Assembly (NCBI RefSeq): GCF_026586665.1
Contig: NZ_JAODIY010000008.1
Span: 62,001 to 126,000, forward strand
DNA length: 64,000 bases
DNA from: Halovenus rubra
Lineage (GTDB): Archaea > Halobacteriota > Halobacteria > Halobacteriales > Haloarculaceae
Direction of reading: 5' to 3'
Numbering within the stretch: the stretch's first letter is position 1; every line of letters starts with the position of its first letter. Below are positions 43,067 to 46,437 of this stretch, piece after piece. The translations under genes and the position numbers were made by a program. The notes below the pieces were generated by a model. It ran no database searches and was not told the origin of the DNA. It saw only the letters and a list, made by a program, of their open reading frames with translations.

Positions 43067-44291
43067 ATGCTTATGGCTTACAACGAGGATACGTCGGCGA
43101 CCCCGGCGGATCGAGTTCTTCCAGGGAACAACTACTAACTCCCTCAGTCAAGACGTACGAATTTTCGACACCACACTGCGTGACGGTGAGCAAACGCCAC
43201 GGACATCGTTCTCGTACGAGAATAAACGCCAGATAGCGGCGCAACTCGACGAGATGGGTACCCATGTCATCGAGGCAGGGTTCCCGGTCAACAGCGATGA
43301 CGAGTTTGAGGCGGTCCGTGACATCGCCGCGGCAACTTCGACCACAGTCTGTGGTCTCGCCCGCGTAGTGGAAAATGACATCGAGGCGGCCCTCGATAGC
43401 GGCGTCGATATGGTCCACGTGTTCGTGTCGACCAGTGACGTACAACTCGAGGACTCGATGCACGCAACTAGGACAGAAGCGAAACAACAAGCTGTCGAGT
43501 CAATCACGCGAGTTGTCGAGGCCGGCGCAGAATGCATGTTCTCGCCGATGGACGCCACCCGAACCGATGAGGAATTCCTGTCCGATATCGTCAACGCGGC
43601 TGCCGATGCCGGTGCGGACTGGATAAATGTGCCCGATACCTGTGGTGTCAGTACACCTGAGCGGTTCCAGGCACTCGTCGCAGATGTCGTCGACGCCAGC
43701 GGCGACGCTCGTGTGGACGTTCACACTCACGATGACTTCGGGCTGGCGACGCCAAATGCACTTGCAGGCTACAGGGGCGGTGCGAGTCAGGCACAGGTCT
43801 CGGTCAATGGTATCGGCGAACGCGCTGGCAACGCGGCCTACGAAGAGGTCGTTATGGGGCTTGAATCGTTGTACGATGTCGATACCGGTATCGATACCAC
43901 ACAGATTGCTGACCTGTCCAAGACAGTCGAGGAGCAGTCGGCAGTCCCAGTGCCGGGGAACAAACCTGTTGTCGGTGACAACGCCTTTGCTCACGAGAGC
44001 GGCATCCATGCGGCCGGTGTCATCGAGAACAGCGAGACGTTCGAGCCCGGCGTGATGACTCCAGACATGGTCGGTGCAGAACGCGAATTCGTCCTCGGTA
44101 AACACACCGGCACGCATTCGGTGCGTAAGCGACTCGAAGATGTTGGGTTCGAACCCACTGACGAGGAGGTACGGTCGGTGACACAGAAGGTCAAAGAAAG
44201 CGGTGTCTCGGCTGGCCACGTCACCGATACCGACTTAGAGAGGTTTGCCCACGAGGTCGATATCACCCGCCACGAGGAGGTCCGCGTTTAG
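43067..44291 (+). CDS. leuA: 2-isopropylmalate synthase, frame disrupted near the N-terminus
   Basis: First enzyme of leucine synthesis. The conserved body runs from RIEFFQGT and RIFDTTLRDGEQTP through HTHDDFGLATPNA to GKHTGTHSVRKRL. No ATG, GTG or TTG opens that frame before residue Met at 43254, which lies beyond the catalytic DTTLRDGEQ. The promoter-proximal ATG (43067, or 43073) starts a different frame, MLMAYNEDTSATPADR, which stops at 43136. Removing one C from the CCCC run at 43101-43104 joins the two as ...DTSATRRIEFFQG, giving about 405 residues. So there is a one-base insertion, real or a sequencing error. It lacks the long C-terminal regulatory domain of bacterial LeuA. A citramalate synthase role is less likely but cannot be excluded. 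Confidence 0.82.
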
Positions 44292-44423
44292 AGCGATGCA
44301 TCGGCCATACAGCAGCGATAACGGGCAGATACCGCTGTCTGGTTCGAGGAAAGCGATGTTGGACGCCTGTCGTGGTGGGTGGTCCAACCGTTTTGGGGAG
44401 CTACAGCGACAGACTCGAAACTG

Positions 44424-44432
44424 TTATATATC
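44424..44432 (+). promoter_or_regulatory. TATA box of the ilvB leader
   Basis: TTATATATC centred 28 bases before the ATG of the leader peptide, exactly the spacing of haloarchaeal leaderless promoters. The mRNA should therefore begin at the leader-peptide start codon. Confidence 0.7.
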
Positions 44433-44455
44433 GCGGCAACAGGAAAGATGTAGTA

Positions 44456-44533
44456 ATGAGACGGACCGCTGGCACCACGGCAATCAACGCCGCCAGCGGT
44501 ATTGCTTTCCTCGGTATTATTGTAGGGGCATAG
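44456..44533 (+). CDS. Putative leader peptide of the ilv-leu operon
   Basis: A 25-codon open frame starting MRRTAGTTAINAASG and ending IAFLGIIVGA, with four Ile, one Leu and one Val. A TATA box 28 bases ahead places the transcription start on its ATG. Its codons 4-6 and 13-15 form the arms of a perfect 9-bp stem (44465-44473 with 44492-44500). Its Val23-stop codons form the 5' arm and loop of a terminator-like hairpin. The peptide precedes ilvB by 71 bases and is in a different frame. I infer a sensing peptide for branched-chain amino acids; there is no homology evidence. Confidence 0.7.
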   Translation: MRRTAGTTAINAASGIAFLGIIVGA

Positions 44534-44559
44534 CCCCTACACTACCTTCTCCTTTATTA
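44522..44559 (+). terminator. Attenuator-like hairpin and pyrimidine tract before ilvB
   Basis: GTAGGGGC-ATA-GCCCCTAC (44522-44540) is a perfect 8-bp stem with a 3-base loop, followed by ACTACCTTCTCCTTTATTA. The leader peptide's TAG stop sits at loop and stem (44531-44533). A ribosome stalled on the preceding Ile-Ile-Val codons (44516-44524) would cover the 5' arm and prevent the hairpin, so this can act as a conditional terminator. Confidence 0.65.
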
Positions 44560-44604
44560 CCCCGACCGCATCGTCACCAAGCAACAGCCACAGCAGATAG
44601 ACAC

Positions 44605-46437
44605 ATGGACAGGACAGCACAGGAGCAACGACCTGCCAGCAAGCGGGCAGGCACAGACGGACACGAACAGAACGACTCAACGGTTGAGGATGCACCAGCA
44701 CCTGAGACAACAGCAGGCGAGCGTCCAGGGGCCGACGGAGTCGAAACAGGAGCTGATGCGGTTGTCGCGGCGCTAGAAGCCGCCGGCGTCGAGCATCTCT
44801 TTGGTGTTCAGGGCGGGGCAATCATGCCCGTGTACGACGCACTCTACGAGCACGATCAGTTGCGTCACATCACGATGGCACACGAGCAGGGCGCAGCACA
44901 CGCAGCGGACGCGTACGGCATTGTTGCGGGCGAGCCGGGGGTCTGTCTCGCCACATCTGGACCAGGGGCGACAAACCTCGTCACTGGAATCGCCGACGCA
45001 AGCATGGATTCGGACCCACTCCTCGCGTTGACCGGGCAAGTTCCAACGGAGTTTGTCGGAAGCGACGCGTTTCAGGAAACGGATACGACCGGCGTCACAC
45101 AGCCAGTGACAAAACACAACAGCTTCGCACAGGACTCCGAGACAGTTGGCAATGAAGTGGGGACGGCATGGGCACTGGCCAACGATGGACGGCAGGGGCC
45201 AACGCTGGTCGACCTCCCAAAAGATATCACGCTTGGTGAGACGACCAGCAAGCCAGACACCCCAGAGACACCAGATACCTACAGCCCGCCAGAACACGCA
45301 GACGACGTAGTTGTCGCGGCCGCGACAGAGGCACTAGAAGCGGCACAGCGTCCAGTGATTCTCGCCGGCGGCGGCGTCATCAAAGGCGAAGCGAGTGACC
45401 GCCTTAGAGCATTCGCTCGCGACTACAAGATTCCAGTCGTCACGACGATGCCGGGATTGGGGTCGTTCCCCGAGGACGACCCGCTGTCGATGGGTATGGC
45501 CGGAATGCACGGCACAGGGTATGCCAACCTTGCGCTGGCGAACGCCGATTTCCTGCTGGGCGTCGGCACACGCTTTGACGACCGACTGACCGGTGGCGTC
45601 GATACGTTCGCGCCCGACGCCGAGGTTGCTCACATCGATATCGACCCTGCCGAGATGAGCAAAAACATCTTCACAGAGTATCCGCTGGTCGGCGATGCAC
45701 ACCAAGTCCTCACCCAACTTGACGATGGAATACAGACTGCGCCTGACTGTGAGGAATGGCGTGAAACCTGCGAGGAGTGGGTCGATACGTACTCACTCGA
45801 CTACGAGATGCCCGAAGACGACCCACTCAAACCGGAGTACGTCGTCGAGATGGCAGATACGGTGACACCAGACGAGACGATTGTCACGACAGGCGTCGGC
45901 CAACACCAGATGTGGGCCTGCCTGTTTTGGGAGTACACCGAACCCCGGACATGGGTGTCGAGTCACGGACTCGGTACGATGGGTTATGGCCTGCCCGCCG
46001 CCATCGGCGCGAAGGTCGCCGCACCCGAGAAAGAGGTCGTCTGTTTCGACGGCGATGGGTCGTTTCTGATGACAATCCAGTCGCTGTCGGTTGCAGTTCG
46101 TGAAAACCTTGATATCACTGTCGTCGTCTTAAACAACGAGGCAATCGGGATGGTTCGGCAGTGGCAAGACGGCTTCTTCGATGGCCGACACATGGCCTCG
46201 GAGTACGGCTGGGTTCCCGAGTTCGACACGTTGGCCGAAGCCTTCGGCGCTCGTGGGTTCCGCCTCGATGACACCGATGCTGTCGAAGCGACACTACAGG
46301 CAGCGCGTGAGTACGATGGCCCGTCGGTTGTCGACGCCCATATCGACCCTGAGGAGAACGTCTACCCGATGGTTCCAAGCGGCGGTGACAATGCCCGCTT
46401 TGCACTGAACGAAACACAGTTGGAGGGGTTAGAATGA
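44605..46437 (+). CDS. ilvB: Acetolactate synthase large subunit
   Basis: ThDP enzyme making acetolactate or acetohydroxybutyrate from pyruvate, the committed step for Val/Leu/Ile. A 610-residue protein. The catalytic Glu lies in MAHEQGAAHAADAYG (about residue 95), the FAD region follows, and the ThDP motif is FDGDGSFLMTIQSLSVAVRENLDITVVVLNNE (GDG...NN). The first 50 residues are a polar haloarchaeal extension. I chose the ATG at 44605; upstream in-frame sequence has no family resemblance. It overlaps ilvN by four bases and is preceded by the attenuator-like leader. Confidence 0.95.
   Translation: MDRTAQEQRPASKRAGTDGHEQNDSTVEDAPAPETTAGERPGADGVETGADAVVAALEAAGVEHLFGVQGGAIMPVYDALYEHDQLRHITMAHEQGAAHAADAYGIVAGEPGVCLATSGPGATNLVTGIADASMDSDPLLALTGQVPTEFVGSDAFQETDTTGVTQPVTKHNSFAQDSETVGNEVGTAWALANDGRQGPTLVDLPKDITLGETTSKPDTPETPDTYSPPEHADDVVVAAATEALEAAQRPVILAGGGVIKGEASDRLRAFARDYKIPVVTTMPGLGSFPEDDPLSMGMAGMHGTGYANLALANADFLLGVGTRFDDRLTGGVDTFAPDAEVAHIDIDPAEMSKNIFTEYPLVGDAHQVLTQLDDGIQTAPDCEEWRETCEEWVDTYSLDYEMPEDDPLKPEYVVEMADTVTPDETIVTTGVGQHQMWACLFWEYTEPRTWVSSHGLGTMGYGLPAAIGAKVAAPEKEVVCFDGDGSFLMTIQSLSVAVRENLDITVVVLNNEAIGMVRQWQDGFFDGRHMASEYGWVPEFDTLAEAFGARGFRLDDTDAVEATLQAAREYDGPSVVDAHIDPEENVYPMVPSGGDNARFALNETQLEGLE

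Follow-up and report, generated by a model that had tools for sequence, protein, structure and literature searches.

Upstream of ilvB, both in the window (i.e., the whole 64-kb stretch of DNA that was analyzed) and across the class Halobacteria, we identified a short open reading frame (ORF) that ends in Ile and Val codons placed directly at an RNA hairpin. Ribosome stalling at these codons probably controls the ilvB-led operon of Halobacteria; we put the probability of this reading at about 0.7. Its sensor part, an amino-acid-sensing leader, is strongly supported by the sequence comparison and very likely correct, and we lean slightly towards transcription termination, rather than translation, as the output. 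The observation itself is real, lies far beyond chance and, judged by its conservation, is functional.

The bacterial ribosome footprint reaches approximately 12–15 nt ahead of the A site. With a bacterial-like footprint, a ribosome waiting at the Ile or Val codon would cover the 5′ arm of the hairpin at these codons (hairpin 2). When Ile- and Val-tRNA are charged, the ribosome would reach the stop codon and leave, hairpin 2 would fold, and expression would stop early, most likely through termination at an exposed G-poor tract, with archaeal FttA/aCPSF1 perhaps acting as the termination factor. When Ile- or Val-tRNA is scarce, the ribosome would stall on Ile-Val and hairpin 2 would stay open; the stalled ribosome would keep RNA polymerase coupled, and transcription would reach ilvB. 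A second short ORF (uORF2) is nearly free of Ile, Leu, and Val, so ribosomes could reach ilvB during starvation. Because a stalled ribosome would cover the 5′ arm and a released ribosome would free it, the state of hairpin 2 should track the charging of Ile- and Val-tRNA; we infer this dependence of folding on ribosome position from the geometry. An earlier note on this DNA had proposed that a stalled ribosome masks the 5′ arm, and the conserved hairpin at the control codons is consistent with such a placement.

The Leader ORF in the Window

The window contains, at ~41–51.5 kb, the genes ilvD, leuA, ilvB, ilvN, ilvC, and leuC/D/B of a haloarchaeal genome, and the leader element is placed between leuA and ilvB. 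The gene proposed to be regulated is the right one, since a Haloferax volcanii transposon mutant in ilvB1 (HVO_1508) requires Val, Leu, and Ile (PMC4300041). The features of the element are:

44416–44420, + strand: BRE, CGAAA, identified by direct sequence reading
44424–44431, + strand: TATA box, TTATATAT, 32–25 nt ahead of the leader ATG
44456–44533, + strand: leader ORF, MRRTAGTTAINAASGIAFLGIIVGA, with ATG at 44456, 25 codons, and TAG at 44531–44533
44465–44473 with 44492–44500, + strand: stem 1, ACCGCTGGC, 9 bp, within the leader ORF
44516–44524, + strand: control codons ATT ATT GTA (Ile-Ile-Val), adjoining the 5′ arm of hairpin 2 and reaching into it
44521–44541, + strand: hairpin 2, TGTAGGGGC/ATA/GCCCCTACA, 9 bp, loop at 44530–44532
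44534–44563, + strand: G-free C/U/A-rich tract, 30 nt, taking in the 3′ arm of hairpin 2
44605–46437, + strand: ilvB, encoding the acetolactate synthase large subunit, start ATG at 44605

Direct reading of the sequence confirmed the TATA box, the ATG at 44456, and the 25-codon frame described in the earlier note, as well as the perfect 9-bp pairing of stem 1; the pyrimidine-rich tail described there is also present, with no G across 44534–44563. The second hairpin, previously given as 8 bp at 44522–44540, exists and is in fact 9 bp long (44521–44541). Its 5′ arm had been described as beginning at the Val codon after two Ile codons (44516–44521); the arm does overlap the Val codon (44522–44524) and begins at 44521. 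The stop codon, which had been assigned to the loop, has its first two bases there, and the third, G, is the first base of the 3′ arm.

The haloarchaeal promoter consensus has been reported as TTWT/CGAAA (PMC4983044). Across loci, AA of the BRE at −37/−36 from the leader ATG was found in 81–86% and TTAT at −32 to −29 in 83–92%. This promoter spacing is fixed across loci. From the position of BRE and TATA box in the window, transcription is predicted to begin at the leader start codon (ATG 44456) or no more than 5 nt away, yielding the leaderless mRNA that had been suggested previously. For a possible alternative start, from the TTTATTA near 44552–44553, relatives do not retain a TATA box (A at ≤10% at the matching positions), and a sigma-70 promoter scan of the window region gave no match. 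Folding of the 150-nt window leader exceeded that of dinucleotide shuffles (z = −3.3; 1/200), and when both strands of the window were searched for short ORFs that are TATA-spaced and have either amino-acid runs or an [ILV]VG end, the leader was the sole match.

A separate observation concerns leuA, which has no clear start in the window (43068–43200); here, a TATA-spaced 23-codon ORF, MLMAYNEDTSATPADRVLPGNNY, overlaps, in another frame, the sequence that codes for the LeuA N-terminus (RIEFFQG...VRIFDTTLRDGEQTPRTSF). This position may therefore hold either a frameshift or one more short leader ORF.

Distribution of the ilvB Leader

An unbiased set of 79 loci was fetched across Halobacteria by ilvB homology, so that loci were not selected for carrying the motif. 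A leader ORF at the fixed BRE/TATA distance was found in 75 of these loci (73 under a strict filter, plus the Leu-Val leader of L192 and the rearranged leader of L211, both clear by eye). The peptide end and both stems are conserved in relatives, which answers the check that the earlier note had proposed. All 30 family loci contain a short ORF ending in IVGA or IVGAx at the same position, and elsewhere in the class the leader was present in 45/49 genomes, which had mostly been picked for absence of the exact motif. In a pattern search, the exact motif was found in 233 of 391 class genomes, representing 57 of 86 genera, with approximately one occurrence per genome and a reversed control near zero. 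A strict 18-base pattern yielded 118 matches among 84,980 species; 116 of these are haloarchaeal, nearly all directly 5′ of ilvB, and named hosts include Haloarcula japonica, Halomicrobium katesii, Haloquadratum, Halobellus, Natrialba, Natrinema, and Natronococcus. The two bacterial exact-pattern matches, in Oscillospiraceae (L127) and Cytophagales (L129), were judged to be due to chance. Outside the class, 393 genomes of the phylum gave five non-haloarchaeal matches, about the number of control matches; the two of these that were read at the locus level (L229 and L230) look like chance. No match was obtained for the element in Rfam at E-values up to 1, or for the leader peptides in Pfam and NCBIfam.

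Four of the 79 ilvB-anchored loci have no leader: L217, a single genome within one genus, and L226, L227, and L228, which represent three early-branching lineages. In these three lineages, a coding region that appears to be the end of leuA reaches directly to ilvB; the combination of a missing leader and a coding region abutting ilvB suggests that the leader arose when ilvB acquired its own promoter.

The Region between Hairpin 2 and ilvB

In 178 distinct loci, G makes up 0–6% at most positions from +1 to +13 past the core of the hairpin 2 3′ arm, and 15% at +7; a core rich in pyrimidines spans approximately +8 to +16 past the arm. TTTT is present at 0–40 nt in 56/188 loci, as compared to 9/188 at 40–80 nt; a conserved U-tract was not found, TTTTT being present within 40 nt of hairpin 2 in only 7/188 loci. 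An intrinsic-terminator scan of the window region gave no terminator-like match, and no conserved antiterminator (2:3 pairing) was found in the ilvB leader, where the freed 3′ arm is without a common partner. These results do not support the bacterial-type intrinsic terminator put forward in the earlier note. Hairpins can matter for haloarchaeal termination, since termination in an H. volcanii reporter reached 59% with a hairpin motif (PMC7237163); in addition, archaeal polarity has been attributed to FttA, and it has been proposed that FttA and the ribosome exclude each other on RNA polymerase (PMC12548453, PMC11616081). Hairpin 2 and the G-poor C/U tract also speak for termination as the output.

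A uORF2 of ~20 codons is located between hairpin 2 and ilvB in 189 of the 206 loci with a placed ilvB start, and its stop codon overlaps the ilvB start as ATGA in 141/158 loci. Ile, Leu, and Val make up 1.9% of uORF2, as compared to 8–10% in other frames and 19% in the operon proteins, and 113 of 158 uORF2s contain none of these residues; T occupies 3.2% of second codon positions, as compared to 8.7% of first and 11.2% of third positions. A low share of Ile, Leu, and Val (7.8%) is also seen in the first 40 residues of IlvB. This avoidance fits a part that would need to be translated during starvation. The window has no separate uORF2; here, ilvB from ATG 44605 opens with ~45 residues that hold a single Ile, Leu, or Val (~44605–44739) and may represent a uORF2 fused in frame.

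The ATGA overlap also bears on an alternative output, in which stalling at Ile-Val alters folding or ribosome traffic such that uORF2, and then ilvB via the ATGA, are translated, while transcription always reads through. Translational control of this kind would agree with the termination-reinitiation coupling that PMC12548453 cites as established in H. volcanii, and with the lack of a conserved U-tract terminator. However, when hairpin 2 was masked as it would be by a stalled ribosome, predicted accessibility changed by only 0.016 at the uORF2 start and 0.024 at the ilvB start, and neither start offers the freed 3′ arm a conserved partner. Sequestration of the starts by the freed 3′ arm is therefore not supported, and we consider translational control as a whole unlikely, if still a serious contender.

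Control Codons and Leader Peptide

As in an attenuator, a short ORF with codons for the operon's own amino acids is found upstream of ilvB; its end, a branched-chain residue and then Val (Ile-Val in nearly every locus), directly abuts the 5′ arm of the GC-rich hairpin 2. The Val codon is GTA in all 218 motif-positive loci, a codon that accounts for only 17 of 220 Val codons (8%) in six genes of the operon region. Comparison supports the Ile/Val control codons named in the earlier note. Base pairing does not account for the invariance of GTA, since this codon lacks full pairing in 169/218 loci, with a fully matching TAC on the 3′ side in 49/218. The codon before Val is ATT in 60, ATC in 12, and GTA (Val) in one of the 73 strict ilvB-anchored loci, and CTC (Leu) in L192; the residue at this position is always branched-chain (i.e., Ile, rarely Val or Leu). 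The share of Ile, Leu, and Val in the six codons before Ile is 26–60%, as compared to mostly 5–19% further upstream.

The leader stop overlaps the loop or the 3′ arm of hairpin 2 in 67 of the 73 strict loci and is located just 3′ of hairpin 2 in the other six. In one clade (L183–L186, L188, and L189), the leader runs past the hairpin and stops shortly after it (IVGAPTPRI and similar), indicating that a stop codon in the loop is not essential.

IVGA is the commonest C-terminal motif of the leader peptides, and nascent-peptide arrest, in which this end would stall the ribosome on a free branched-chain amino acid in a TnaC-like manner (TnaC responding to Trp), could be considered. However, Gly-Ala becomes GV, GG, GPA, or RA along with the stem, conservation does not extend to the residues upstream, and the peptide of some leaders continues five residues beyond the hairpin. 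Codons and RNA are thus kept and the peptide is not, which makes arrest by the nascent peptide highly improbable.

Conservation of Hairpin 2 and Stem 1

Stalling at codons, rather than peptide arrest, would act through hairpin 2, and the pairing of this stem is kept across genera by compensatory changes, with the Gly and Ala codons varying along. Stem variants include GGGGT/ATCCCC and GGGGT/ACCCC (IVGV), GGGCC/GGCCC (IVGPA), CGGGCC/GGCCCG (IVRAR), and GGGGCG/CGCCCC. Because a MAFFT alignment of hairpin 2 puts the loop gaps wrongly, pairs were counted in a register fixed by the core; two-sided changes were found at 4/6 pairs, in a count that is circular for the four core pairs and not for the flanking pairs. 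The predicted pairing probability of hairpin 2 without a ribosome averages 0.94.

Stem 1 is kept in position, with arms that differ by clade (CGCTGGC/GCCAGCG, CGCGCT/AGCGCG, and CGACGGC/GCCGTCG), and the ORF part of 182 distinct leaders folds with a mean z of −1.34 (63% below −1). MAFFT and RNAalifold on 32 family leaders gave no consensus structure, since codon-length indels misalign stem 1; in place of RNAalifold, stem 1 was assessed by counting the stated structure and by folding each sequence. Covariation of stem 1 in the family set was 0.142, as compared to 0.082 ± 0.014 for shuffled sets (0/500), and a slide by one codon (+3) still gave 0.112 because of one-codon indels; the family statistics for stem 1 are thus moderate. 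In a second clade, two-sided changes were found at 4/9 consensus pairs. The covariation that the earlier note had proposed looking for is therefore present, as compensatory changes, in both stems.

At the DNA level, the arms of hairpin 2 form a dyad, GTAGGGGC-n-GCCCCTAC, which is almost single-copy per genome and always adjoins ilvB, and could in principle be an operator bound by a repressor or by a regulator of the Lrp type, with the ORF being incidental. Neither the constant half-site spacing nor the equal half-sites of an operator were found: spacing varies with the loop, and the sides are unequal (GTA is invariant, vs a matching TAC in only 49/218 loci). Unequal sides and a variable loop argue against an operator, as does the location of the repeat downstream of the start site and always in one frame, after Ile-Val and with an in-frame stop, leaving an operator only a very slight chance. 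There is next to no chance that the leader, although a real and conserved ORF, serves to make a small protein that functions in trans, since only its last codons, which coincide with the hairpin, are conserved and its length varies (mostly 19–37 codons).

Cognate Leaders Upstream of pheS and trpS

Since uORFs before pheS and a tryptophan-tRNA ligase gene have been tabulated for H. volcanii (PMC4983044, Table 2), the regions upstream of aminoacyl-tRNA synthetase genes were read as well. In 18/30 genomes, or 21/30 by a looser rule (L237–L266), pheS follows a TATA-spaced ORF whose peptide terminates in GFGFFF or a similar sequence. The start region of this leader, CCGAACCC, pairs with the Phe-codon region, GGGTTCGG, and a compensatory pair (CCGAATCCC/GGGATTCGG) was found; stems beat shuffles at 5% in 17/21 leaders. 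At 11 loci (L268–L276, L279, and L285), trpS is preceded by ORFs whose WRW-type codons fall in a hairpin loop, and the stem of this hairpin folds better than shuffles in all 11. The arms of this stem have changed yet remain paired (GTCCACTTCC/GGAAGTGGAC, GTCCGCTTCC/GGAAGCGGAC, and CTATCTACTCCC/GGGAGTGGATAG), and strand 2 can alternatively pair with a downstream U/C-rich strand. The genome of the window itself has MVSDPHSRCFAREVAITRGFGFFVF before pheS (L237) and VLSTPVADSWRWRFRQGVDSIAT before trpS (L269).

Under one strict rule, IVG leaders were found at 30/30 ilvB loci, Phe leaders at 18/30 pheS loci, and Trp leaders at 8/30 trpS loci; the same rule found no Phe or Trp leaders at trpC, trpD, hisG, leuS, or ileS loci, and cognate leaders were not found before any of these five genes. 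One unrelated IVG-type ORF was seen at hisG under the strict rule.

A general archaeal form of ribosome-mediated attenuation, with leaderless cognate-codon ORFs at ilvB, pheS, and trpS, ribosome release followed by FttA/aCPSF1-dependent termination at a G-poor tract instead of a bacterial intrinsic terminator, and a uORF2 nearly free of Ile, Leu, and Val that would keep the ilvB start open to translation under starvation, is a tentative extension of these findings, to which we give slightly less than an even chance. If true, the class-wide case would mean that archaeal transcription-translation coupling is tight enough for regulation, FttA-type termination would gain a physiological regulatory target, and the logic of attenuation would work on leaderless mRNAs. 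H. volcanii, for which reporters, auxotrophs, and maps of transcription start sites and 3′ ends exist, is a ready host for testing.

Comparison with Known Systems

Leader-peptide attenuation is a textbook bacterial mechanism. In the trp, phe, ilv, and leu operons of E. coli, ribosome-mediated transcription attenuation uses control codons that specify the amino acids supplied by the operon itself, and the position of the ribosome decides the folding. The haloarchaeal ilvB leader shares such control codons, and the trpS leader resembles the E. coli trp attenuator in its strand 1:2 vs strand 2:3 pairing. The ilvB leader differs from the E. coli systems in that no 2:3 antiterminator and no intrinsic terminator were found and that the codons would occlude the hairpin directly. 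In TnaC, stalling depends on free Trp together with the nascent peptide, and Rho is the termination factor. As in TnaC-type attenuation, a ribosome stalled on the ilvB leader could shield a downstream C-rich, G-poor factor-loading site; in contrast to TnaC, codons appear to weigh more than the peptide, and FttA is no more than a candidate factor.

In the openly accessible literature searched, no archaeal leader-peptide attenuator was found. Hairpin and T-stretch terminators have been described in H. volcanii, where they were not linked to leader peptides or amino acids (PMC7237163). Among the H. volcanii uORFs in long 5′ UTRs, the pheS and tryptophan-tRNA ligase entries match our Phe and Trp leaders; however, codon content, structure, and regulation are not discussed there, and ilvB is not in that table (PMC4983044, Table 2).

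The closest parallels in layout are the actinobacterial ilvB attenuators of Corynebacterium, Mycobacterium, and Streptomyces, in which a short ORF with Ile, Val, and Leu codons overlaps a terminator hairpin followed by poly-U before ilvB; trpS and leuS leaders have also been predicted in some Streptomyces (PMC1262725, PMC11857589). A result from Streptomyces coelicolor calls for caution regarding codon-based control in an ilvB leader by analogy, since codon changes in a look-alike leader did not alter regulation (PMC1262725). While the actinobacterial hairpins have poly-U runs and bacterial terminators or antiterminators, the haloarchaeal element has an archaeal host, an apparently leaderless ORF behind a TATA box and BRE, a G-poor C/U/A tract, and uORF2. 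Bacterial-style leader-peptide control in archaea, with a sensor that is well supported by comparative sequence evidence, would thus be new here, as would a uORF2 nearly free of Ile, Leu, and Val and the cognate leaders of pheS and trpS.
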